DNA of 34,538 nucleotides from an uncultured bacterium (lineage in GTDB: Bacteria > Omnitrophota > Gorgyraeia > Duberdicusellales > 4484-171), in the NCBI GenBank assembly GCA_913050175.1, contig CAJXAF010000006.1, forward strand, positions 1-34,538, read 5' to 3'. The notes below the pieces were generated by a model. The model worked only from the letters and a program-made list of their open reading frames with translations. It searched no databases and was not told where the DNA came from. Below, piece after piece: positions 1 to 29,343 of the stretch. The translations under genes were made by a program, and so were the position numbers. How positions within the stretch are numbered: the stretch's first letter is position 1; each line of letters opens with the position of its first letter.

Positions 1-715
1 AAATGCTATTACCAAAGAAACCGCTGGTGCTGGCCCTCTTATTAAGCGCAACTGAAGTCACAGGTACAAAATTCTCATCCACGTCTAAAAAGTTAAAAAT
101 ATCTTTTACTATGCTTAAAGGATTAGAAATAAGCTCTTCGAATAAGTATGTTCTTATTTGGTCTTCAGAAAATAGAGAGTAGTAATTGCTTAGGGATTCA
201 TAATAGAAACTCCCCTTTATGCCTGACCATTTATCAGATTGCCCCCAATCACCAGAAATCTCTTTCTCTTGGTTTGCCAGCAACTCTCCATAATCTTTTA
301 ATTGATTAGCGCTATTTCTCACTTTTAAAACATGTGTTGAAAAAGCCCGGTCTAAGGGGTTACGTAAAATAACTATCAACTTAGCATGAGGAACTCTTTG
401 TTTTATCAATTTAGCTGTTGAAGAATTGTGCAGGTAACGGACTGAGGCTTCTCCGATTGCTTTTTCGCTTTTTACGTCTTTAAATAACTTTTTATATGAA
501 TCTAGATTTTTTGGCTTTAATGGTCCTTTTGGTTTATCTTGAATAAAATACTCCGGTTCTTTCTCTTGTGGCATAAAAATTTGAGGGTGCTGTCTTAAAT
601 AAAAAAATAAAGAAGTTGTAGCTGAACGTGGAGCTCCAATAATAAAAAAATTAGGAAATTTAGAGCCTGGACTATTATTTCTCTTGATATTAATTGAATT
701 TCTTATTTCTTCCAT
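1..715 (-). CDS. Sulfotransferase family protein, 3' end truncated by window edge
   Basis: Not in ORF track because it runs off the window. Reverse translation from ATG at 715: MEEIRNSINIKRNNSPGSKFPNFFIIGAPRSATTSLFFYLRQHPQIFMPQEKEPEYF..., with a PAPS-binding P-loop-like motif and RNPLDRAFSTH (3'-phosphate-binding-like motif). Overlaps the 3' end of the next gene by 26 bp. Confidence 0.88.
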   Translation of the reverse strand, partial: MEEIRNSINIKRNNSPGSKFPNFFIIGAPRSATTSLFFYLRQHPQIFMPQEKEPEYFIQDKPKGPLKPKNLDSYKKLFKDVKSEKAIGEASVRYLHNSSTAKLIKQRVPHAKLIVILRNPLDRAFSTHVLKVRNSANQLKDYGELLANQEKEISGDWGQSDKWSGIKGSFYYESLSNYYSLFSEDQIRTYLFEELISNPLSIVKDIFNFLDVDENFVPVTSVALNKRASTSGFFGNSI

Positions 716-1751
716 AAAAGACTTCCTTATAAATCTGATAAGTTTTTTCAGCGCAACTCTGCCAGCTAAATTGCTTTGACTTAGCAAACCCATTTTTAAT
801 CAGTTTATCTCTATATGAATCATTTTCTAAGATATTGCTTAACTTGCAATCGAACTCTTCTAAATCACCGGGATTGATAAAGCATACTTCTTGGTCATTA
901 TATAACTCCTTAAATACAGCAATGTCAGAGCAAACAACCGGGCAACCGCAAGCCATTGCCTCCAAAATCGGTAGGCCAAAGCCTTCAGCTAAAGACGGCA
1001 TAAGCAAAACATCAGCTATATTATAAATCTCAATAAGCTCTTTAGAACTTATTGCCGGTTCAGATATGTTAAATATTCTTTTTTTTAGTCCATGCTTGAT
1101 AATATATTTTTTCTGTTTAGCTGTAAATTTTCCGATTTTTATGAATGTGATCTCTTTATTTTTTAGAAGAAGTTTTAATATTAACTCTATGTTTTTTCGG
1201 GGAAATGATGTGCCTACGTGTAAAATAGATTTATTTTTTATTGAGTATTTTTCTTTCAGCTGGCTTCTATTGTTTAAAGTTCTAAAATTACTTGAAACTC
1301 CATAAGGTATTATGCTTATTTTATCCTCAGGATAATTAAAATGGTTTTTGATACTTTTTTTTGTAGTATTTGAAGAAGTAATTATTCTTTCTGCTCTTGG
1401 CAAAAATTTTAAATTATAATTATGTCTTAATCTGCCCAAAAAAGATGTTTCTTTAGGAATGTCCAAAGGAATTAAATCATGACAAGTTAATATTGTTATC
1501 TTGGGATCAAGATATTTAAGTAAGCCGGCATAGCTATGATCAGATATATGGTTTAATTGACCCTGATGTCTTGAAGCTATTTTGGGAAACAAGTACTCTT
1601 TATGCAAATAATGCCTTAAGAGGGGTAGATTTTTTGCCTTTATTGTAAAATCGCTAACGCCATCCGGCATAAACTTAAGTAATTCATTGGTATAGCGCTC
1701 CATACTCATTGTATTTTCACCAATAACATTTCTAAATAATACTACCTGCAT
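690..1751 (-). CDS. Glycosyltransferase family 4 (GT-B)
   Basis: IIPYGVSSNF, ILHVGTSFPRKN, MPSLAEGFGLPILEAMACGCPVVCSDIAVFKEL, the typical GT4 C-terminal donor-binding motif. Confidence 0.93.
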   Translation of the reverse strand: MQVVLFRNVIGENTMSMERYTNELLKFMPDGVSDFTIKAKNLPLLRHYLHKEYLFPKIASRHQGQLNHISDHSYAGLLKYLDPKITILTCHDLIPLDIPKETSFLGRLRHNYNLKFLPRAERIITSSNTTKKSIKNHFNYPEDKISIIPYGVSSNFRTLNNRSQLKEKYSIKNKSILHVGTSFPRKNIELILKLLLKNKEITFIKIGKFTAKQKKYIIKHGLKKRIFNISEPAISSKELIEIYNIADVLLMPSLAEGFGLPILEAMACGCPVVCSDIAVFKELYNDQEVCFINPGDLEEFDCKLSNILENDSYRDKLIKNGFAKSKQFSWQSCAEKTYQIYKEVFYGRNKKFN

Positions 1752-1760
1752 ATGCTAAAA

Positions 1761-2405
1761 TTAATTAATAAAGGATAGAAATACATCTTGAGCTTCCTTT
1801 ATGGAATCGCATTTTTTTAATTCAGACCTTAAATCTTCTTTTAAGCCACGTTGTCTTTCTTTTAAGTCTTCTATTGATTTTGGCCTCCTAAGAGGGACTT
1901 TTCCCAGATTATAAGTAAAATTGGTCCCGTAGCGCTTATTAAGCAATTCAACAGTCAAGCCAGGATTCTCTATTGTTTTATCGAACTCAGCAATAATAAA
2001 ATTATGTTTTATTTTGGCTATACGTTTATAAAAATATATATAGCTGCGGATTATAATTCTATACGACAATAGAGGATCAACGGCCAAAATTGAAGCTATT
2101 GAAAAAAGAGGGTCTCTTATAGTTACTATACAAGGTACATTGTATTTAACGGCAGTAATAATTTTCATAGGCAGATGAATTTGGCTGGGTACGCAGACTC
2201 TCTTATTCCAACTACTAAAACATTGAATAAGAAAATTATTGGCTGATTTTGGGAAACCATCAATACAGATTGCTGTATCAGGATAAACAATATTCTTGCG
2301 AAATTTAGGCATTAGCCACAAACTTTTATACAAGTAGGGATGGCTGCCAAGAAAATTTCTAGATAAATATGGGAAATTTCTTAAAAATTTAGATTTTCTT
2401 ATCAT
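1761..2405 (-). CDS. Divergent sulfotransferase-fold protein
   Basis: ICIDGFPKSANNFLIQCF resembles the sulfotransferase P-loop (GFPKSGNTWL type); VTIRDPLFSIAS resembles the 3'-phosphate motif. Confidence 0.7.
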   Translation of the reverse strand: MIRKSKFLRNFPYLSRNFLGSHPYLYKSLWLMPKFRKNIVYPDTAICIDGFPKSANNFLIQCFSSWNKRVCVPSQIHLPMKIITAVKYNVPCIVTIRDPLFSIASILAVDPLLSYRIIIRSYIYFYKRIAKIKHNFIIAEFDKTIENPGLTVELLNKRYGTNFTYNLGKVPLRRPKSIEDLKERQRGLKEDLRSELKKCDSIKEAQDVFLSFIN

Positions 2406-2435
2406 TATATTAAAAGTAATATTTATCTTCTAAAA

Positions 2436-3830
2436 TCAGTCTACCTTTAAACAAAAGTATTTTTTTCTAGCTAGGGCTAAACCTAAAAACATCCAAAGCA
2501 TTAGTCCAGGCATGGAAACCAATACCCGTGAGAATATTGCCTGGCTGAAGATAGCAACAATTATAGTCTCATTTATTATGGTAAATTGATCCTTCTTGGC
2601 TAGGCTTGTTTGAAAAGTGTTTGATAGTAACCCGAATAAAGCAATTATATAGGTAAGCCCAGCAAAGAACCCCAAGCTATAAGGCAGATAGATAATTTCA
2701 GAGTGTAGTCGCATATATTTATATTTTGATTGATTGATTCTGGCCAATAAACCTATACCGCCAAACCCCTGGCCTTTAAGGTTAAAAAGAGATTGGGGCA
2801 GGAAGACTACATATTCATGAATTCTTTTTTTTAGACTTATGTCATCTTTTATATTAGAAATACTTTGAAAACGTGAGCTCATTTGTTCATTTATTGGCGT
2901 AAAAAATAAAAATGGCATCAATAAGATACAAACTACTATGATGACTAAAAATATATGTATTTTAAACCGTTTTTTTGCTCTTAAAATAGCAAATGATACT
3001 CCTAGCATCCATCCACCCCAGGCAGAACGAACCATAGACAAAAGAAATGCTATATAGCCAAAAGTAGCTGAAGTAGCTGCTACCGCACCTCTATTATTAA
3101 ATAGCAATAGCAAACCAACTAACATTACTCGAGCGAAAACATTGGGTGAGTTTAAAGTACTAAAAACTCTGACCTTAAAACTTTCTGCTCCACCAATTGC
3201 CTTCATCTGAGAACTTATCATCCAGTATTTATCCCAATCAAAGAGAAAGATAAATTGAAGCAGGCCATATGTTCCTATTACTAAGATAATCCAGATAAAT
3301 GTTTTTTGAATTATTGCTTTGCAATGATTATAAGTCTTAAATTGTAAAATTATATGGATTCCAAAAAAAACCGGTAATATCCAAGTAAGTAATTCAAAAC
3401 TGGCACTAAACATACCATTATTTACTACCCCTAGGATATAGCCATAACCTATTGATATAAAAATCATAATAAAGGCCAGAAGGGTCTTTTTTGACAAATA
3501 ACCCAGCCGGTGGATAAAAGTAATAAGTGTTGGCGAAAGTACCAGATAGGGGGTTAAAATAACAGTATTTAAATGATCCCATTCTAATTGAAAATCTACG
3601 ACGCGGCGAATACAAGGATTTAGAACCCAAATCCATAAGATAAAACTTATATAACGAAAGGGCTTTAAAAAATAAAGCAACAAACCAGCAATAAAAGATA
3701 GCGCCGGATAGGAAATCTTAAAATAAAGACTACCTGGCCTAAGAAGACCAAAGACGACAAAAATAATGAAGACTATAATTATAATCCAGTCTGAATAAGT
3801 GTTTATATATTTTTTAATAAATTTAATCAT
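2436..3830 (-). CDS. O-antigen ligase/polymerase (Wzy/WaaL-like) multipass membrane protein
   Basis: About 10-12 hydrophobic segments; central FSTLNSPNVFARVMLVGLLLL and C-terminal RLHSEIIYLPYSLGFFAGLTYI resemble Wzy_C-type proteins; sits between glycosyltransferase genes. Confidence 0.8.
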   Translation of the reverse strand: MIKFIKKYINTYSDWIIIIVFIIFVVFGLLRPGSLYFKISYPALSFIAGLLLYFLKPFRYISFILWIWVLNPCIRRVVDFQLEWDHLNTVILTPYLVLSPTLITFIHRLGYLSKKTLLAFIMIFISIGYGYILGVVNNGMFSASFELLTWILPVFFGIHIILQFKTYNHCKAIIQKTFIWIILVIGTYGLLQFIFLFDWDKYWMISSQMKAIGGAESFKVRVFSTLNSPNVFARVMLVGLLLLFNNRGAVAATSATFGYIAFLLSMVRSAWGGWMLGVSFAILRAKKRFKIHIFLVIIVVCILLMPFLFFTPINEQMSSRFQSISNIKDDISLKKRIHEYVVFLPQSLFNLKGQGFGGIGLLARINQSKYKYMRLHSEIIYLPYSLGFFAGLTYIIALFGLLSNTFQTSLAKKDQFTIINETIIVAIFSQAIFSRVLVSMPGLMLWMFLGLALARKKYFCLKVD

Positions 3831-4762
3831 TTCTTGTAATTTAACTTTTTCCAGGCTTTAAATCCCTGCCACCGACCACGATAACTTGCAAGCAACTTCC
3901 TTAAAATTAGCCCTCTTTGGCTTGGCAAAAATCTTAATAGCTGTACAAAGCCGGGAGCATCTCTGGTGCCAACCGCTAAACACCAAACAATAAAAAAGCA
4001 TCGACTCATAGGCGATAAGTGTTTAAGCACGATAAGGGTCTCATTGTAAACATTATCAGTAAAAACAGCAGGATTAAACTCATCTCTCTTATCCAGCCCT
4101 GGACGTTCTCCTAAATAATGGTCAACAATTATATTGGGATCATAAATAATTTGCCAGTTACGCTGTTTAACTTTTAAAGAAAAATCTAATTCAAAAAACA
4201 TTATTGTGCCAGAACCACGTAAAGACTTCTCAAAGCACAAACCATCTATAGCCTCTCTTCTAAAACTCATATTAACGCCTTTTAAATGATCAACTAATCT
4301 TGGACCACCAAAACCTAAGTGGTGATTGCCAATCATTCGGCCAAACCACTGTAGTTTGCCGACTGTTTCTTTTCTTCCCTCTATAAGCTTACCATCTTTG
4401 AACATATTATCCCGGCCGCCAAGACCACCTAGTTTAGGCTCGGATAAAAAATGAGCTTCAATTTTTTCAAGCCAGGATAACGAAGCACTGGCATCATCAT
4501 CAGTAAAGACAATAATCTGACCCTTGGCTTGGCTGAGCCCTAAATTATAAGCAGGGATTGAACCAATTACATTAATAGTAAGTATGCGTAAATTTAAATT
4601 CTCCGGCCTAAAATTTTCTAAAAAATCAGTAGTAGCTTTATCCTCGGGATGAATAATTAATAGGACCTCTTCCGGCAACCGGTTTTGCTTTGTAAGAGCC
4701 ACGAGACACTGTTTAAGAAGTTCTGATCTTTTGTAGGTAGGTACGATAACGCTAATATTCAT
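3827..4762 (-). CDS. Glycosyltransferase family 2
   Basis: MNISVIVPTYKRSELLKQCLVALTKQ..., IIVFTDDDASASLSWLEKIEAHF, GANMSFRREA-like VNMSFRREAIDG. Confidence 0.93.
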   Translation of the reverse strand: MNISVIVPTYKRSELLKQCLVALTKQNRLPEEVLLIIHPEDKATTDFLENFRPENLNLRILTINVIGSIPAYNLGLSQAKGQIIVFTDDDASASLSWLEKIEAHFLSEPKLGGLGGRDNMFKDGKLIEGRKETVGKLQWFGRMIGNHHLGFGGPRLVDHLKGVNMSFRREAIDGLCFEKSLRGSGTIMFFELDFSLKVKQRNWQIIYDPNIIVDHYLGERPGLDKRDEFNPAVFTDNVYNETLIVLKHLSPMSRCFFIVWCLAVGTRDAPGFVQLLRFLPSQRGLILRKLLASYRGRWQGFKAWKKLNYKK

Positions 4763-4768
4763 AAAAAA

Positions 4769-5680
4769 TCACTTCAACCAATGGCTTAAATCTCTATTGA
4801 TCATATCTGATAGTATTAAGACATCACTTTGGAATTCTTTTATTAATACTTTTTTAAATTCTTCATCAAGGGGCTGGCGCTTTATATGTTTAGCATTTAA
4901 GTTATTAAGTATTTTTTTAATTCCTAGTGTTTTTAAACCTGCAATTTTTTTAAATTTTACAATACCCGAGGACAATTTTTTTGGTGGATCTTTTGTGAGT
5001 CGATTTATAAAATCTCGCCTATAAACCCGGTTCTGATTAAATACCTTAAAAGTAATTTTGTCATCTCTAGGAATAGATAAAAAATCTAACACTTCTTCAT
5101 AGATCTCTCTAGTCTTGCTAATAAAATCGTCAAAAATAATTATTTTAACTTGACCATGAGAGAATACACCTAATAGGCGCTTTACTTGCGCTCCTAATTT
5201 GCCTACCTCTGAATATTGCAAAAATTGTTCGGAATGATTTCTTTTAGGTAGATTAAATCCCTTTTTCCGTAAATCCTGTAAGTTCCAGGCCTCTTTGAAA
5301 GTACTGGCATCTTCATTGCGTCTATAACGCATTTGATAGTATGATGAATAAACTAAATCTACCGGGTTTCTTAACATGACTATTATTTTGGCCTTATCAT
5401 TAAACTGCTTAATATTTTTTAAAGCTACCAGAGATTGTAAATATCTTGTTGAAGCCTCACCAACAGCCTGATGGCAGATTTTAGTTTTTTTAAACAAAGA
5501 TAAGTATTGGGGCATAGTTTTAACTATCTGGTACCTACTAAAATCAGACGAAAAAAATCCCGGCTCTTTCGGAAAGCTCATAAAAATATTAGGATGGCTT
5601 GATAAATAATTGTATAAAGATGTTGTCCCGCAACGGGGCGCTCCGACTATAAAAAAATTAGGTTTAATTACTTTAGACAT
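4769..5680 (-). CDS. Sulfotransferase domain protein
   Basis: NFFIVGAPRCGTTSLYNYLSSHPNIFMSFPKEPGFFSSD and IIVMLRNPVDLVYSSYYQM, canonical sulfotransferase motifs. Confidence 0.93.
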   Translation of the reverse strand: MSKVIKPNFFIVGAPRCGTTSLYNYLSSHPNIFMSFPKEPGFFSSDFSRYQIVKTMPQYLSLFKKTKICHQAVGEASTRYLQSLVALKNIKQFNDKAKIIVMLRNPVDLVYSSYYQMRYRRNEDASTFKEAWNLQDLRKKGFNLPKRNHSEQFLQYSEVGKLGAQVKRLLGVFSHGQVKIIIFDDFISKTREIYEEVLDFLSIPRDDKITFKVFNQNRVYRRDFINRLTKDPPKKLSSGIVKFKKIAGLKTLGIKKILNNLNAKHIKRQPLDEEFKKVLIKEFQSDVLILSDMINRDLSHWLK

Positions 5681-6611
5681 TCAATATATTTTTCTTGATT
5701 GCTGCGTAACGACACTCAATTATTTTTATTACCTTTTCATCTATAAAGTTTTTATACTTATTTATTGATTTTGTATTTAGGCGGTTAAACTCACCTTTTG
5801 CAATATTGGCTTCTAAAAAATCATTTAACTTATTTACATACAATTTAGGTTTAGAAACAAAATCATTATATTGCAATAAAATGTAATTAGTTTTATTAAA
5901 CTTCGTACTATTGCTTACTTTTTCATAGCAGCTTTTTTCCAGATACTCCCATAATAAATATGCTCTTAGGTAATTTGGCCCTTCTATGAAAAGCTCTATA
6001 TCGCTCTTATCTACCCAGTAGGGGACTCTTTTCTCCTTAATAGATTTTATAATGCCTATTTCTGGAATCTGGCTATAGATTTCATTGCTATTTTGCATAT
6101 TTAATATAAGCTCATCACTAAAAGCATTATAGCTCTGGATAAGACTACTGGCACAAGCTCTTGGGTCACGAATAATATGTACTATCTTTGCCTCGGGAAA
6201 AATATCAAGAATTAATTCTGGATTCATAGTTAAAAACGGTTCATGGTATATAAATCTGATATTCTCATAAAAATTTGAGTCCAGTCTGGTTTTTAATAGT
6301 ATGCTATGAGAAAATTCTTTTAGGGATATTTTCCCTTTCAGCAATTTTGCCAGCAAGAGTATCCTTCTCTGTCGTTGCTGGCGGATAGCGCTTTCTATGT
6401 TGGCTCTTATTTCACAGATATAGAATTCATAATCTTGGCTAGAAATACCATCTGCTATCTTATGCACTATATGGGGGGTAATTAAAATATCGTGGAATAA
6501 TTCAGAGTAAGGCATGGAAGAGATAATTTCTGAAAGGACAGTCGTGCCGGATCGGGGAGATCCGATCACAAAAATTGGTGGCCTAGACTTGTATTTCATC
6601 TTAGAAGTCAT
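5673..6611 (-). CDS. Sulfotransferase family protein (Sulfotransfer_3 type)
   Basis: PIFVIGSPRSGTTVLSEIISSMP and KIVHIIRDPRACASSLIQSY. Confidence 0.88.
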   Translation of the reverse strand: MTSKMKYKSRPPIFVIGSPRSGTTVLSEIISSMPYSELFHDILITPHIVHKIADGISSQDYEFYICEIRANIESAIRQQRQRRILLLAKLLKGKISLKEFSHSILLKTRLDSNFYENIRFIYHEPFLTMNPELILDIFPEAKIVHIIRDPRACASSLIQSYNAFSDELILNMQNSNEIYSQIPEIGIIKSIKEKRVPYWVDKSDIELFIEGPNYLRAYLLWEYLEKSCYEKVSNSTKFNKTNYILLQYNDFVSKPKLYVNKLNDFLEANIAKGEFNRLNTKSINKYKNFIDEKVIKIIECRYAAIKKNILNV

Positions 6612-7811
6612 TTAATTATAAATTAGATCTTCTTTTAGATGATTTTCTAGTAAAGCTTTCATCTCTTCTATTTTTGCATTAAAAATACCCTTTTTGTTTA
6701 CCTTTACCCTTCGATTTAACTTTAAATCAAAGAGTTTGCTTCTTTGGGGAAACTTTTTGTTGAGTATAAATTTATAATCCTCTGTTCTAACCATAGTCGC
6801 TCTATTTGTTGAAGCAAAAATAGCTCTTTCGCTCTTATTATCTATATTATTAATTAAACCGATCAGATCACTACCGTCAATTTGGTTGACTCCGGCTATC
6901 TCCAAGACGCTTAATATTGTGGGTACAATATCCACCAATCCGGCTACTTTTTTAATCCGCCTGGGGAGAAAACCAAAAGACTTTGGCATTTTAATAATAA
7001 GAGGAACATGCAAGGATGTATCATCTAAACGGTCGCTGACCTTGATAACAGCACCTTGACTAAGTTCTCTGCCATGAGCTGAAGTAACAATTAAAAGAGT
7101 ATTGTCCCACAAGTTAACTGCTTTTAAAAAGTCAAAGAATCTATTCAAATACCCGTCAATGTACTTTAATTTCTGATCGTAAGAATAATGCATAGTGTCT
7201 GTATTATTTTTGTAATCTTTTTTTTCTAACTCATTCAGTTGTAAAAGAAGAAAAAAATCTTTATCTTGATTTTCTAGAACCCATCTATGCACTTTTGGTA
7301 AAATCAGAGACATTTGTTTGCTTTTATACCAAAAATTAAAATCCTTGCCATAGCTAAGTAAGTGAGAAACGCTTGGGGAGTTACTAAAACCGGCTGTCAT
7401 GAACTTGTGTTTTTTTAAAATATTAATTAAACTTTCTTTTGTATTCAAAATAGCTGAGCTATTTTCAGGTCTTTTTAGATAATCAAAGTTAAGCCTGTAG
7501 TCAGATGTTAACATAGATATGTAAGACAAGACTGTTCTTGGTGACTGACTAAAAGCATTTTCAAATATTAGGCTTTCTTTGGCAAATGTATCAATACCAG
7601 AAGAAGCGTTTGTCTCATACCCATAACAACTTAAATCGCCAGCTCTTAAACCGTCAATAGTGATAAGTATTACCTTGGAAGCATTGTTATGTAAATTAGG
7701 CTTACCTGAATCTTTTTTCCTAAAATCTAAGATAATTAAGGTTAAAGAAACTAATGCTACTAAGACTATTAGAAGCGTAGGTTTACCTTGTTTGGGATAA
7801 AGAAATGACAT
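6612..7811 (-). CDS. Membrane-anchored sulfatase / alkaline-phosphatase-superfamily protein with non-canonical active-site positions
   Basis: N-terminal TM (TLLIVLVALVSLTLIIL), VILITIDGLRAGDLSCYGYETN, FENAFSQSPRTVLSYISMLTS, VTSAHGRELSQ, LHVPLIIKMP. Confidence 0.85.
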   Translation of the reverse strand: MSFLYPKQGKPTLLIVLVALVSLTLIILDFRKKDSGKPNLHNNASKVILITIDGLRAGDLSCYGYETNASSGIDTFAKESLIFENAFSQSPRTVLSYISMLTSDYRLNFDYLKRPENSSAILNTKESLINILKKHKFMTAGFSNSPSVSHLLSYGKDFNFWYKSKQMSLILPKVHRWVLENQDKDFFLLLQLNELEKKDYKNNTDTMHYSYDQKLKYIDGYLNRFFDFLKAVNLWDNTLLIVTSAHGRELSQGAVIKVSDRLDDTSLHVPLIIKMPKSFGFLPRRIKKVAGLVDIVPTILSVLEIAGVNQIDGSDLIGLINNIDNKSERAIFASTNRATMVRTEDYKFILNKKFPQRSKLFDLKLNRRVKVNKKGIFNAKIEEMKALLENHLKEDLIYN

Positions 7812-23282: not shown

Positions 23283-23357
23283 TGGCTGCCCGGCTAGGAC
23301 TCGAACCTAGGAAACAAGAACCAGAATCTTGCGTGTTACCAATTACACTACCGGGCA
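23283..23357 (-). tRNA. tRNA-Gln (anticodon CTG), CCA encoded
   Basis: Minus strand TGCCCGG-TA-GTGTAATTGGTAACAC-G-CAAGA-TTCTGGT-TCTTG-TTTC-CTAGG-TTCGAGT-CCTAG-CCGGGCA-G-CCA; all four stems pair; 75 nt. Confidence 0.96.
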
Positions 23358-23403: not shown

Positions 23404-23441
23404 ATTCTTTCTGGCAGGTAGTTTTTTATATATTCCTATAT

Positions 23442-23474
23442 AAAAAACAAGGGAGTATTTTATTTACTCCCTTG
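23442..23474 (-). terminator. Strong Rho-independent terminator
   Basis: Minus strand perfect 10-bp stem CAAGGGAGTA / TACTCCCTTG, 7-nt loop, then TTTTTT. Confidence 0.9.
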
Positions 23475-25170: not shown

Positions 25171-25189
25171 CAAGGTCTCCCCTTGTCAA
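25162..25189 (-). promoter_or_regulatory. Consensus sigma70 promoter for the PHP-like gene
   Basis: Minus strand TTGACA-16 nt-TATAAT, ~120 bp upstream of the ATG at 25040; the -35 overlaps the 3' end of the DUF192 CDS. Confidence 0.75.
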
Positions 25190-25755
25190 GGCAATGCCTT
25201 AAGAGGGTTTTCTTCTAGCCTTAGATCCAATTTATCGCCGATATTAATGCCTAATTTATCAACAAAACCGGCATTAATTTCTAAAACATACTTGGCCTCT
25301 GCTTTCGGGTAGATCGGCTGACAGAAATCATCACTACAGGGTTGGGCCTGTTTCTTAATAAAGACTACTCTTTCTTTACTGTTAATCCAGATCATATCTA
25401 GAGGGATATAAGTATCCTTCATCCAAAAAGAATGCTTGCTTTCGCTTTCGAAGACAAAAATCATACCTCTATCCTCTTCTAATCTAGGCCTAAACATCAG
25501 ACCTCTCCGGCGGGCTTCTAAGGTATCAGCGATCTCGACAGTAAAACAAGTATCTTTAAAGCAAACCTTATCTTCTGATTTAGCCAGGATAGGAAAAAAT
25601 ATAAAAATAAACAAAAATGAAGCTCCGCTGACTAAAGCCCACTGTTTCCTGCGTATCGCTTTTTGCGGAGCGGAATCCTGCAACTGCTTCCATCCCCGGC
25701 TTAAAAGCCGAGGTTTTATCGTGGGGGATAAAGTCAGCCAGTAAAATTTTCTCAT
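25186..25755 (-). CDS. DUF192 family secreted protein with anomalous long N-terminal extension
   Basis: FTVEIADTLEARRRGLMFRPRLEEDRGMIFVFESESKHSFWMKDTYIPLDMIWI, the DUF192 hallmark; hydrophobic signal SFLFIFIFFPILA preceded by ~45 mostly polar residues. Confidence 0.9.
   Translation of the reverse strand: MRKFYWLTLSPTIKPRLLSRGWKQLQDSAPQKAIRRKQWALVSGASFLFIFIFFPILAKSEDKVCFKDTCFTVEIADTLEARRRGLMFRPRLEEDRGMIFVFESESKHSFWMKDTYIPLDMIWINSKERVVFIKKQAQPCSDDFCQPIYPKAEAKYVLEINAGFVDKLGINIGDKLDLRLEENPLKALP
25627..25738. mobile_element. Candidate MITE / insertion-element-end-like remnant
   Basis: GCTGACT (25627-25633) and AGTCAGC (25732-25738) form 7-bp terminal inverted repeats, with subterminal CCCAC/GTGGG; internal hairpin CCCCGGCTT-AA-AAGCCGAGG (25694-25713). 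Confidence 0.4.
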
Positions 25756-25785
25756 AGAAATAGTCTTAATACTTGCCTTGGGCTA

Positions 25786-25813
25786 TTGACAAAAGTTTAT
25801 TTTAATCTATAAT
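25786..25813 (+). promoter_or_regulatory. Perfect-consensus sigma70 promoter on the plus strand
   Basis: TTGACA (25786-25791)-16 nt-TATAAT (25808-25813). Confidence 0.8.
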
Positions 25814-25829
25814 AAAAAATCTCTCATTC

Positions 25830-25881
25830 GTTAATAAAGGTTTTTAAATTAATTGTCTTCATTATCCTTACCTTTATTAAC
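25830..25881 (+). promoter_or_regulatory. Leader stem-loop with perfect 12-bp arms upstream of the 53-aa ORF
   Basis: GTTAATAAAGGT (25830-25841) and ACCTTTATTAAC (25870-25881) are exact reverse complements; 28-nt loop. Confidence 0.6.
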
Positions 25882-25934
25882 AAGGCTCACTGTTTTAACC
25901 AATAACCGCTTCTTTTAAAAATAAAGGTGTTTTA

Positions 25935-26096
25935 ATGAAGGAATTTACTGTAAAAATAAAATACGATAACGAAACTGCCTCTTTTAGCCACAAAGATGTC
26001 TACTGGGCAATGACACATATATTTGGTATTAATACTAATTTTGAAGTCTCAGTGGTTCCTAAAACAAGCGCATCCAACAATAAACAAAATAAATAA
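25935..26096 (+). CDS. Small hypothetical protein, 53 aa
   Basis: Not in the ORF track (too short). MKEFTVKIKYDNETASFSHKDVYWAMTHIFGINTNFEVSVVPKTSASNNKQNK*; SD-like AAAGGTG 5 nt upstream; consensus promoter 121 nt upstream; only plausible plus-strand gene in the window. Confidence 0.65.
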   Translation: MKEFTVKIKYDNETASFSHKDVYWAMTHIFGINTNFEVSVVPKTSASNNKQNK

Positions 26097-26102
26097 TTTA
26101 GC

Positions 26103-27404
26103 CTATTGTTTTTGGCTCCAATAGTCGATAAGCTTATTTAGGCGTTTAATCACTCTTTCCTTGCCTAGAGTTTCTATAGTTTCAAATAATCCCGGGCCGT
26201 GTTTTGTGCCGGTTAAGGCAATTCTAGATGGGTGAACTAAAATTTTTAATTTTATGTTTAAATCCTCAGCTGCCTTGCGAAAGGTTTTCTCAATATCTTC
26301 CTTATTAAAATCACCAATCTTATCAAGGCTATCTCTTAAAAAACTAACCTCTTTTATTAAGGAGTTATCGAGAATTTTCTTAGCCTCATCGCTATAGATA
26401 ACTTCATCATTAAGGTATGGTTTTAGGGCAGTTAATAAATCTGAGAGCCTTAAAGTCCTCTCTTTAAAAAGAGAAGCAAGCTTATTTAGATAATTCTTGT
26501 CAATACTTTCAGGTAGGGCATTATTTTCTTTGAGGTAGTTTATAATTAAATCAGAAAAATCCTCAGTTGTCTTTTGTCTTATATATTCACCGTTAATCCA
26601 ATTGAGTTTATCTAAAGAAAAGGCAGCACCGGTTTTATTTACAGCCTTCATCGTAAAAATTTCTTTTGCCTCAGACAGAGAGATGATTTCCCGATTCTCA
26701 CCGGGAGACCAACCTAGAAGCATAAGATAATTAACAATGCTTTCCGATAAATAACCTTCTTGCCTATATTGACGGATTGAAGTAGCGCCAAAACGTTTTG
26801 AAAGTCTACCTCCCTGGCCTGACAAGATCAAAGGAACGTGGGCAAACTGGGGAGTCTTAAAACCTAAAGCTTTATACATTAAGAGTTGTTTGGGTGTATT
26901 GGATATATGGTCTTCTCCCCGAATAATGCAGTTTATTTCCATTAAAGCATCATCAATTACACAACTGAAATTATAAGTCGGTGAGTTATCACTTTTAATA
27001 ATTACTTCCTCATTCTTAGGTAATTCTTTAAATATGATCTCTCCTCGGATTAAATCATCAATTTTTACTTGATCAAAATTATATTTAAAAAAAACTGCGC
27101 CTTCTTTCTTGTAAGCACTGCCTTGATCAATTAGTTTCTTCGCATACTCATGGTAAATATCAAATCGTTCTGATTGATAGTAGATTTGGTCCCAATCCAT
27201 ACCCAGCCACTCTATGCTTTCTAGAATCTCATCTAAAAATTCTTTTTTTGACCGGGCTAGATCAGTATCCTCAATACGAAGAATCAATTCTCCCGCACAC
27301 TTACGGGCGTATAACCAATTAAAAAGACAAGTTCTGGCTCCGCCAATATGCAGATATCCTGTGGGAGAAGGCGCAAACCTTACCCGTAAAGTTTCTTCAC
27401 TCAC
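26103..27404 (-). CDS. gltX: Glutamyl-tRNA synthetase; start re-assigned to GTG at 27404
   Basis: RVRFAPSPTGYLHIGGARTCLFNWLYARK (HIGH region), RLSKRFGAT (KMSKS-type). The track start at 27437 lacks a clear SD; AGGAGG lies 6 nt upstream of GTG at 27404. Confidence 0.95.
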   Translation of the reverse strand: MSEETLRVRFAPSPTGYLHIGGARTCLFNWLYARKCAGELILRIEDTDLARSKKEFLDEILESIEWLGMDWDQIYYQSERFDIYHEYAKKLIDQGSAYKKEGAVFFKYNFDQVKIDDLIRGEIIFKELPKNEEVIIKSDNSPTYNFSCVIDDALMEINCIIRGEDHISNTPKQLLMYKALGFKTPQFAHVPLILSGQGGRLSKRFGATSIRQYRQEGYLSESIVNYLMLLGWSPGENREIISLSEAKEIFTMKAVNKTGAAFSLDKLNWINGEYIRQKTTEDFSDLIINYLKENNALPESIDKNYLNKLASLFKERTLRLSDLLTALKPYLNDEVIYSDEAKKILDNSLIKEVSFLRDSLDKIGDFNKEDIEKTFRKAAEDLNIKLKILVHPSRIALTGTKHGPGLFETIETLGKERVIKRLNKLIDYWSQKQ

Positions 27405-29343
27405 TATTAACCTCCTGAGAAAATTTGTTAAAATCAATATTGTATTTATCTAAAATCTTACGAGCATCTTGGTTGAATCCGGTTTTAAAATAAATTTTTG
27501 CCATAAGTTTCTGAGCCTTTCCTAAATTTTGCTTATAAAATATTGCCTTACGACAATACTTATAAGCATCGTTATAACTTCCTTCCTGATAAAGCATATC
27601 AGCCAGAAAAAAATAACTTAAAGCATGATCTGGCCTAATAGTTAAAACCTGGTTTAAAAAATCCCGGCTTCCTTGATGCTGACCTAAAATATATAAAACG
27701 TACCCCATATTAAAATGGCCCTTGATTGAAGGCTGATGGCTCTTTAAATTGCCAATTAAATTCAAGGCTTTTGGCTTAACTTTAGAAAAATCAACTACAT
27801 ACTCCATTAAAGAAGGATCTTTAATAAGCTGCTTTCTATCTACGAAAATAAGACCATCCCGGTTAAAATATATACAGATAAAACCCTTATCATAGAGCCG
27901 TTTAATTAGGGTTTGAGGTGTATCACGCAGATAACTTATTAGGAATCCTTCTAGCTTGTACTTTTCGATTAACTCATCAATAACTTTAATATCACCTTTG
28001 GAAGCTTTTACATAGGAGGAAAAAAAATCCTGGCCGTAAACTTCTGTACGGCCATCAATAAAAACTTTTCGCTGGGGATAAAAATTAAAAATTAAAGGCG
28101 CACCCATATTAAAAGTATTAAACATATTATCCGGTAAATCAATATTTTTTGCAAATTCTATTAAGTTTTCCGGGTAAACTTCTGATTCTAGTGACATAAA
28201 GTTTCCCCTAAGTTCAATCTCGCTATCCTTATTAAAATAAGAACGAATGTGTCGGGGTTTCTCTCTTAGCTCTGTAAATAAATTTATTGAAAATACAACT
28301 GTAAAAATAAGAAACCCCAGATGCAAGATTTTAAACCCTGACTCTCTAAGGACTCTCTTCTCCAGAGTCTCTTTAATATATTCGTAGCGATTAGCAAAAA
28401 TAGTTAAGACTATAGGTATAAAAAAATAAATATTCCTAAGGGCGTTAAAAGAAAATAAAGCAAAAGTTATAAACAACCCCGGATAAAATAAATTAAGGTT
28501 TTTCACAAAACATAAAGACAAAGCGCTCAAGATTAAAAGACCGACAAAGATAGACCTTTGAGGATAATAGCTAAAGGGACTTTTTAATTCCTGGATATTA
28601 TCATAAAAAATATTATTGGCGCCTGAAGATATCTGGCCGACTATGCTGAAAGGATAGCTAAGAGCAGCTTGAGGATGGGGAGTTATAAAAGAAGCCAAAA
28701 TTACCAAGAGAAAAATCAGCCTTACCTTCTTATAAAAATCCGCCTCATATGTTTTCTTATTGATTTTTCCAAGAATAAGATAAAGCAGTAAAATAAGCGG
28801 GCCCATAAAGAAAAATCCGTGTATATTTACCCAGAAGATCTGTATGATCGGTAAAAAGAATAGCAGTTTTTTCTTCTTAAAAATAAAAGGTGCCAAAAAG
28901 ATTATTAGAAAAAGAAAACTTACATTATCCGGCCGGAGAGTAAAACGCCTGATTGAAAGTTGCAAGCAGGCAAAAATTATCGGAAAAGAAAATACCCAGT
29001 CTGTTTTTAAGATAAAAGTTGTTAAGAGAAGAAAAGATAGAGAAAAAACCAATACTTTTAACAAAAATAATGCTTCCAACCCGGCAAATTTATGAACAAT
29101 ATATATTACGACCTGATATAACCACTCATGATCAACCCATTTTTGGCCAGAAGCAGTAAAAGAAAATACATCCTGGGTAGGGATTTGTTTCTCGGTTACT
29201 ATATGTTCGCCGGCTTTGATATGAAAAAGATAGTCAACCCCACCTAAGTTGGAGAAAGCTGACATCATCATATAAGAGAAAAAAACAAAAAAAACGAATA
29301 CCTTTGCCAATAGGGCAAGTTTATTTAAATGCTTAAATATCAT
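27397..29343 (-). CDS. Multipass membrane protein with C-terminal TPR repeats (GT-C-like topology)
   Basis: GGVDYLFHIKAGEHIVTEKQIPTQDVFSFTASGQKWVDHEWLYQVV followed by many TM helices; C-terminal TPR (GYVLYILGQHQGSRDFLNQVLTIRPDHALSYFFLADMLYQEGSYNDAYKYCRKAI). Confidence 0.75.
   Translation of the reverse strand: MIFKHLNKLALLAKVFVFFVFFSYMMMSAFSNLGGVDYLFHIKAGEHIVTEKQIPTQDVFSFTASGQKWVDHEWLYQVVIYIVHKFAGLEALFLLKVLVFSLSFLLLTTFILKTDWVFSFPIIFACLQLSIRRFTLRPDNVSFLFLIIFLAPFIFKKKKLLFFLPIIQIFWVNIHGFFFMGPLILLLYLILGKINKKTYEADFYKKVRLIFLLVILASFITPHPQAALSYPFSIVGQISSGANNIFYDNIQELKSPFSYYPQRSIFVGLLILSALSLCFVKNLNLFYPGLFITFALFSFNALRNIYFFIPIVLTIFANRYEYIKETLEKRVLRESGFKILHLGFLIFTVVFSINLFTELREKPRHIRSYFNKDSEIELRGNFMSLESEVYPENLIEFAKNIDLPDNMFNTFNMGAPLIFNFYPQRKVFIDGRTEVYGQDFFSSYVKASKGDIKVIDELIEKYKLEGFLISYLRDTPQTLIKRLYDKGFICIYFNRDGLIFVDRKQLIKDPSLMEYVVDFSKVKPKALNLIGNLKSHQPSIKGHFNMGYVLYILGQHQGSRDFLNQVLTIRPDHALSYFFLADMLYQEGSYNDAYKYCRKAIFYKQNLGKAQKLMAKIYFKTGFNQDARKILDKYNIDFNKFSQEVNSE

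Follow-up and report, generated by a model that had tools for sequence, protein, structure and literature searches.

The window, i.e., the whole stretch of DNA that was analyzed, is the 34,538-nt contig C6 of a 1.36-Mb Omnitrophota genome that is 91% complete. Its clear long protein genes are located on the minus strand, as judged by eye from the list of open reading frames (ORFs), and a plus-strand transcription unit is flanked by the start of a DUF192-like gene on one side and by the gltX end on the other. The parts of this unit and its two neighbors are as follows.

25186-25755, minus strand: DUF192-like gene, named by eye.
25786-25813, plus strand: predicted sigma-70-type promoter, TTGACA-16-TATAAT, 12 of 12 consensus matches.
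25830-25841, plus strand: arm 1, the putative mimic of the ribosome-binding site (RBS), GTTAATAAAGGT; pairs perfectly with arm 2 early on, in the open state.
25833-25852, plus strand: first copy of a 20-nt direct repeat; the second copy (25920-25939; 85% identity, spacing 87) holds the RBS and the start codon.
25853-25918, plus strand: possible but weak leader ORF of 21 codons with a TTG start, running through arm 2 and stopping just before the RBS.
25856-25864, plus strand: putative toehold UCUUCAUUA in the hairpin loop between arm 1 and arm 2; its closed-state partner is the start-codon region 25933-25941, according to the fold and a duplex estimate.
25869-25881, plus strand: arm 2, the anti-RBS (ACCTTTATTAAC at 25870-25881), with arm 1 or the RBS as alternative partners.
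25920-25929, plus strand: RBS region, AATAAAGGTG.
25935-26096, plus strand: P0001, the putatively regulated gene for a 53-amino-acid protein of an uncharacterized Omnitrophota family, recognized by homologues and the pattern of substitutions over codon positions.
26103-27437, minus strand: gltX, whose end adjoins the plus-strand unit.

Transcription is expected to start near 25819-25821, resulting in a leader of about 115 nt in a region with 26% G+C. Perfect -35 and -10 hexamers (TTGACA and TATAAT) are present upstream of all four family genes, i.e., the family promoters are unusually strong and conserved, though the leaders are otherwise unalignable. The unit (25756-26102) is reversed relative to gltX, and read-through from the latter would yield an antisense RNA to the whole unit, including the leader; no strong gltX terminator was seen, and a promoter scan revealed no strong antisense promoter within the leader. 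At the other end of the window, positions 1-7811 contain several sulfotransferase-like genes together with glycosyltransferases and O-antigen ligase-like and sulfatase-like proteins (by eye) and may be devoted to a sulfated surface polysaccharide.

On comparative grounds, P0001 is a real gene. Homologues were detected in three other Omnitrophota genomes of different genera, G018 and G007 from the same family and G391 from another one, and the substitutions between the window and G018 concentrate at the third codon position (9, 8, and 17 by position). The search drew on about 390 Omnitrophota genomes in each draw, on searches at the family and order level, and on contig, viral, and plasmid collections; no further homologues were found in those genomes and collections, and weak matches in G024, G193, G015, and contig C34 of G007 were dismissed as short chance matches. 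A second copy is absent from its own genome. The sole same-genus genome compared, G001, has no match at the locus (L044), where gltX is directly followed by the DUF192-like gene with nothing between them, and none elsewhere; given this gap and the few homologues, the family is rare and patchy. In G018, the homologue is likewise located near the end of gltX, and the homologue of G007 carries an N-terminal fusion to a PilZ domain (E = 1.2e-14). The P0001 protein is hydrophilic and without a match in Pfam, NCBIfam, or the PDB, its homologues adding a single nonsignificant Pfam match. The family consensus reads MKELTVKIKYDN-TA-FS--DV--AM-HLFGINTNFEVE, and an AlphaFold model of low confidence (pLDDT 65) predicts a strand-strand-helix arrangement.

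An earlier note on this DNA had described the two arms as perfectly complementary and the RBS region as a repeat of 9 nt of arm 1, and both descriptions hold. Arm 1 and arm 2 are exact reverse complements of each other, and AATAAAGGT at 25920-25928 is the 9-nt repeat, which in fact belongs to the 20-nt repeat at 85% identity; because of this extension, arm 1 is regarded as an RBS mimic. Arm 2 can pair either with arm 1 (25870-25881 with 25830-25841; 12 bp) or with the RBS region (25869-25878 with 25920-25929; 10 bp). The pairing of the RBS with rRNA is predicted at about -6.5 kcal/mol, assuming a standard anti-Shine-Dalgarno (anti-SD) tail, as the assembly lacks a 16S rRNA gene. The previous description lacked a third pairing, namely, that of UCUUCAUUA (25856-25864) with UAAUGAAGG (25933-25941), which spans 9 bp across the AUG. 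The end of the leader (25904-25930) also forms a 27-nt direct repeat of 74% identity with codons 13 to 22 of the ORF (25973-25999).

Folding of RNA 25819-25970 at 37°C yielded -24.6 kcal/mol for the closed fold versus -18.6 kcal/mol for the best arm 1:arm 2 fold, i.e., the hidden state is the predicted ground state and better by about 6 kcal/mol. The minimum-energy fold contains the 10-bp helix of arm 2 with the RBS as well as the loop:start-codon helix and so buries RBS and AUG alike. The picture differs in short RNAs. In a series of truncated transcripts, which represents equilibrium folding at each length and is not a kinetic test, the arm 1:arm 2 helix (about -12 to -13 kcal/mol) forms first and has a probability of 0.999 in transcripts ending at 25885-25935; it is about balanced (0.6 to 0.7) at 25940-25950, yields at 25955-25960, and falls below 0.01 from 25960 on. 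The helix is thus dominant to about position 25950, i.e., until about codon 7 is transcribed, and blocks the capture of the RBS in these equilibrium folds of the nascent RNA. When arm 1 was forbidden to pair, the RBS pairing reached 0.99 to 1.0 from 25928 on (15 and 37°C), and a ribosome modeled over 25915-25950 brought the arm 1:arm 2 helix back to 1.0. A weak local hairpin still engages the RBS in the open state and leaves it only about 20% unpaired, so that openness is meant here in a relative sense: the site becomes far more accessible without being fully free.

The predicted barrier of the direct path from the open to the closed state amounts to about 18 to 19 kcal/mol. This is an upper bound, because a pseudoknot between the loop and the start codon (9 bp within a -11.1-kcal/mol duplex), which is invisible to nested-fold programs, could start strand displacement. 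Were about 19 kcal/mol the true barrier, the RNA might perhaps never switch within its lifetime. The same loop-toehold pseudoknot over the AUG, ignored by these programs, could form even in the open state.

How unusual this arrangement is depends on what is counted. A perfect 12-bp inverted repeat arose in 52 of 20,000 leader shuffles (0.26%), and two are present in the whole window, where about 0.5 are expected; the other one, at 23421-23448, is located close to a tRNA gene (23286-23357, minus strand). Complementarity to the RBS of at least 9 nt occurred in about 2.7% of shuffles. The inverted repeat alone is hence unusual for a leader of such composition and not remarkable window-wide; it is the combined geometry that is remarkable. 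The latter was captured by a switch index, which gives the probability that the RBS bases take their partners from those leader bases that are already engaged in pairs in a transcript lacking the RBS. The index is 0.98 at the locus, a value equaled by none of 15,105 dinucleotide shuffles; four of them exceeded 0.8, and in none of these four was the AUG hidden too. In a genome control of 40 contig stretches plus the window (720 kb), the best of 693 other ATG starts had an index of 0.72, so that the locus ranks first of 694, and it is the only start of the 694 with both RBS and AUG open by 5% or less. Since the index was devised after the case had been seen, these control figures somewhat favor the locus.

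Conservation of the three arms in relatives, on which the earlier note had staked its proposal, was found in none of the three homologues. Their leaders comprise 211, 141, and 61 nt (the last in G391), local alignments between pairs of leaders are no better than chance (best P value of 0.07), the masking of the RBS seen in the window is absent in 3/3, and the switch indices are 0.34, 0.06, and 0.02. The arms are therefore not conserved, given leaders that cannot be aligned, an RBS that is not masked in this manner, and low indices; this result has limited force, as the three homologues are distant and such leaders may turn over quickly. With the leader as a DNA query against relatives, only short AT-rich noise was retrieved outside the coding part. 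Rfam searches with gathering and relaxed thresholds returned tRNAs and subthreshold noise only and no leader or riboswitch family, which bears out the former statement that no nameable riboswitch class is matched. A cyclic-di-GMP riboswitch, considered because of the PilZ fusion, was rejected for the same lack of an Rfam match. A type I toxin-antitoxin mRNA is not supported, as the protein is hydrophilic and PilZ-fused in G007 and the leader is without a strong antisense promoter. For a conceivable role of the arms as DNA operator sites, the evidence points neither way: the extended arm motif has two sites in the leader and one weaker match in the window, which is within chance expectation.

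Taken together, the leader is tentatively explained, with a probability that we place a little short of even, as a lineage-specific and kinetically controlled RBS-sequestering switch that is set by folding order. According to the computed folds, arm 1 and arm 2 would pair first as RNA polymerase leaves the promoter, so that the RBS, on emerging, would find the anti-RBS already taken. With about 20 to 25 nt of coding sequence made, the larger fold covering the RBS and the AUG is predicted to become the ground state. Ribosomes loading on the nascent RNA would keep it open, and RNA not loaded in time would refold and fall silent, probably through invasion of the hairpin loop by the start-codon region, which would displace arm 1. 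The outcome would be a limited burst of small protein per transcript, and its synthesis would be tied to free ribosomes and to transcription still under way. An additional influence on the balance by a ligand, a protein, or a small RNA is conceivable, but the mechanism would not need it. Whether cells exploit this interval for translation, and whether a further factor tips the balance, we can only infer. The device appears to be specific to the lineage; a function is plausible, and it is unproven because no gene-carrying relative shares the switch. Of the translational switch seen in the earlier note, the exclusive pairings, the predicted control of a strong RBS, and the real gene stand, while the two states are not evenly balanced, with more than 97% hidden. 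Both structures anticipated there were recovered by folding, the open one being favored in short RNA only and the closed one at full length, and this dependence on length is easier to attribute to folding order than to a ligand.

Other explanations have to be weighed against this folding-order switch. The repeats could be a mutational relic: an inverted and a direct duplication, e.g., by template switching in replication, would have placed a partial copy of the RBS region upstream, and the resulting pairing would hardly matter for regulation, if at all, since the RNA is held open by the ribosomes translating it. The coincidence of a 20-nt direct and a perfect inverted repeat in one short stretch is what such events leave, the switch is missing from all homologues, and the shuffle tests rule out chance pairing based on composition and not a duplication origin; since shuffles do not model duplications, a template switch may still have produced the repeats. 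We nevertheless consider a mere relic somewhat unlikely, as the anti-RBS also matches the start-codon region, outside the perfect copy of arm 1, and as no other of the 694 starts is predicted to be so strongly occluded; occlusion without a function would usually cost expression. The arrangement of an anti-RBS and an anti-anti-RBS is typical of ligand- or protein-dependent leaders, and its presence here would suit a switch in which a metabolite or gene product stabilizes the open or closed state; the small protein itself could regulate its own leader. Such a dependence is improbable, however, in view of the missing Rfam family, the lack of a compact conserved core in a region of such low G+C content, the absence of any such element from the homologues' leaders, and the roughly 6 kcal/mol that a ligand of the open state must pay at full length.

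The leader ORF offers another way to expose the RBS. Ribosomes on its 21 codons would traverse arm 2 and free the RBS, and stalling or starvation would alter the outcome, as in erm-type control. The ORF spans arm 2 and ends 4 nt before AAAGG, and ribosomes modeled on arm 2 or at the ORF stop left the RBS 71 to 100% unpaired. It begins with TTG behind a weak SD sequence 12 nt away, though, a similar ORF is found in 6.6% of shuffles, and the G391 homologue, with its 61-nt leader, has no evident one; we accordingly rate leader-peptide control as slightly less probable still than a ligand or protein. An RNA thermosensor, one of the mechanisms named in the earlier note, would melt an AU-rich stem over the RBS on warming, and RBS and AUG are indeed placed within such a stem. 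At full length, the closed state holds a share of 0.976 to 0.998 over 10 to 55°C, with 97.6% at 55°C, and the predicted opening of the RBS is at most 2% throughout; a thermosensor is therefore highly improbable.

A more far-reaching form of the folding-order switch would be a purpose-built cotranscriptional timer on a bacterial chromosome, in which the RBS mimic holds the anti-RBS for a few seconds of translatability before loop-initiated strand displacement at the start codon silences the mRNA of a new small-protein family linked to PilZ. The folding models permit this proposal, which we regard as rather unlikely in its entirety. If true, cotranscriptional strand displacement could be studied in a simple system, as the leader combines RBS mimic, anti-RBS, and loop toehold in compact form, and synthetic toehold switches would have a counterpart in nature. 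Attention would also be drawn to a small orphan gene family of Omnitrophota with a perfect promoter in all four known copies. To our knowledge, almost no RNA regulation has been studied in this phylum, and the natural leaders we know of that limit translation by folding order rather than by a ligand are mainly those of RNA phages and type I toxin mRNAs.

With translational riboswitches of the anti-SD/anti-anti-SD type, the leader shares the three-part arrangement of anti-RBS and anti-anti-RBS; unlike them, it has no aptamer, Rfam match, or conservation. The overlap of a leader ORF with the RBS-hiding segment recalls erm-type translational attenuators, but the ORF is weak here and could be due to chance, as its frequency in shuffles indicates. 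The likeness to the type I toxin mRNAs aapA/IsoA and hok/Sok comprises a short mRNA, a small protein, a metastable 5' hairpin, and a stabler, SD-hiding final fold (PMC6733600). In hok and aapA, this final fold consists of a 5'-3' interaction that is undone by 3' processing, and in aapA3 it is the metastable hairpins that hide the SD (PMC6733600), whereas the early hairpin found here is predicted to free the RBS; moreover, no antitoxin RNA was found at our locus, and the protein is hydrophilic and PilZ-fused in one genome. In the maturation gene of MS2, a transient structure permits translation before the final fold forms (Groeneveld 1995 and van Meerten 2001, as described in PMC6733600). In this phage, a long-range fold hides the SD at equilibrium, as is predicted here, and a transient fold gives new RNA time for translation, as the early hairpin may do here. 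The two differ in that MS2 uses a cloverleaf, whereas the present leader is DNA-templated from a bacterial chromosome, with a single anti-RBS, an RBS-mimic competitor, and a timing that is only computed. Delayed folding entails an equilibrium fold that hides the RBS, as the closed state (0.976 to 0.998) is predicted to do here, and the leader is tentatively best read as one that would work like the leader of the MS2 maturation gene.
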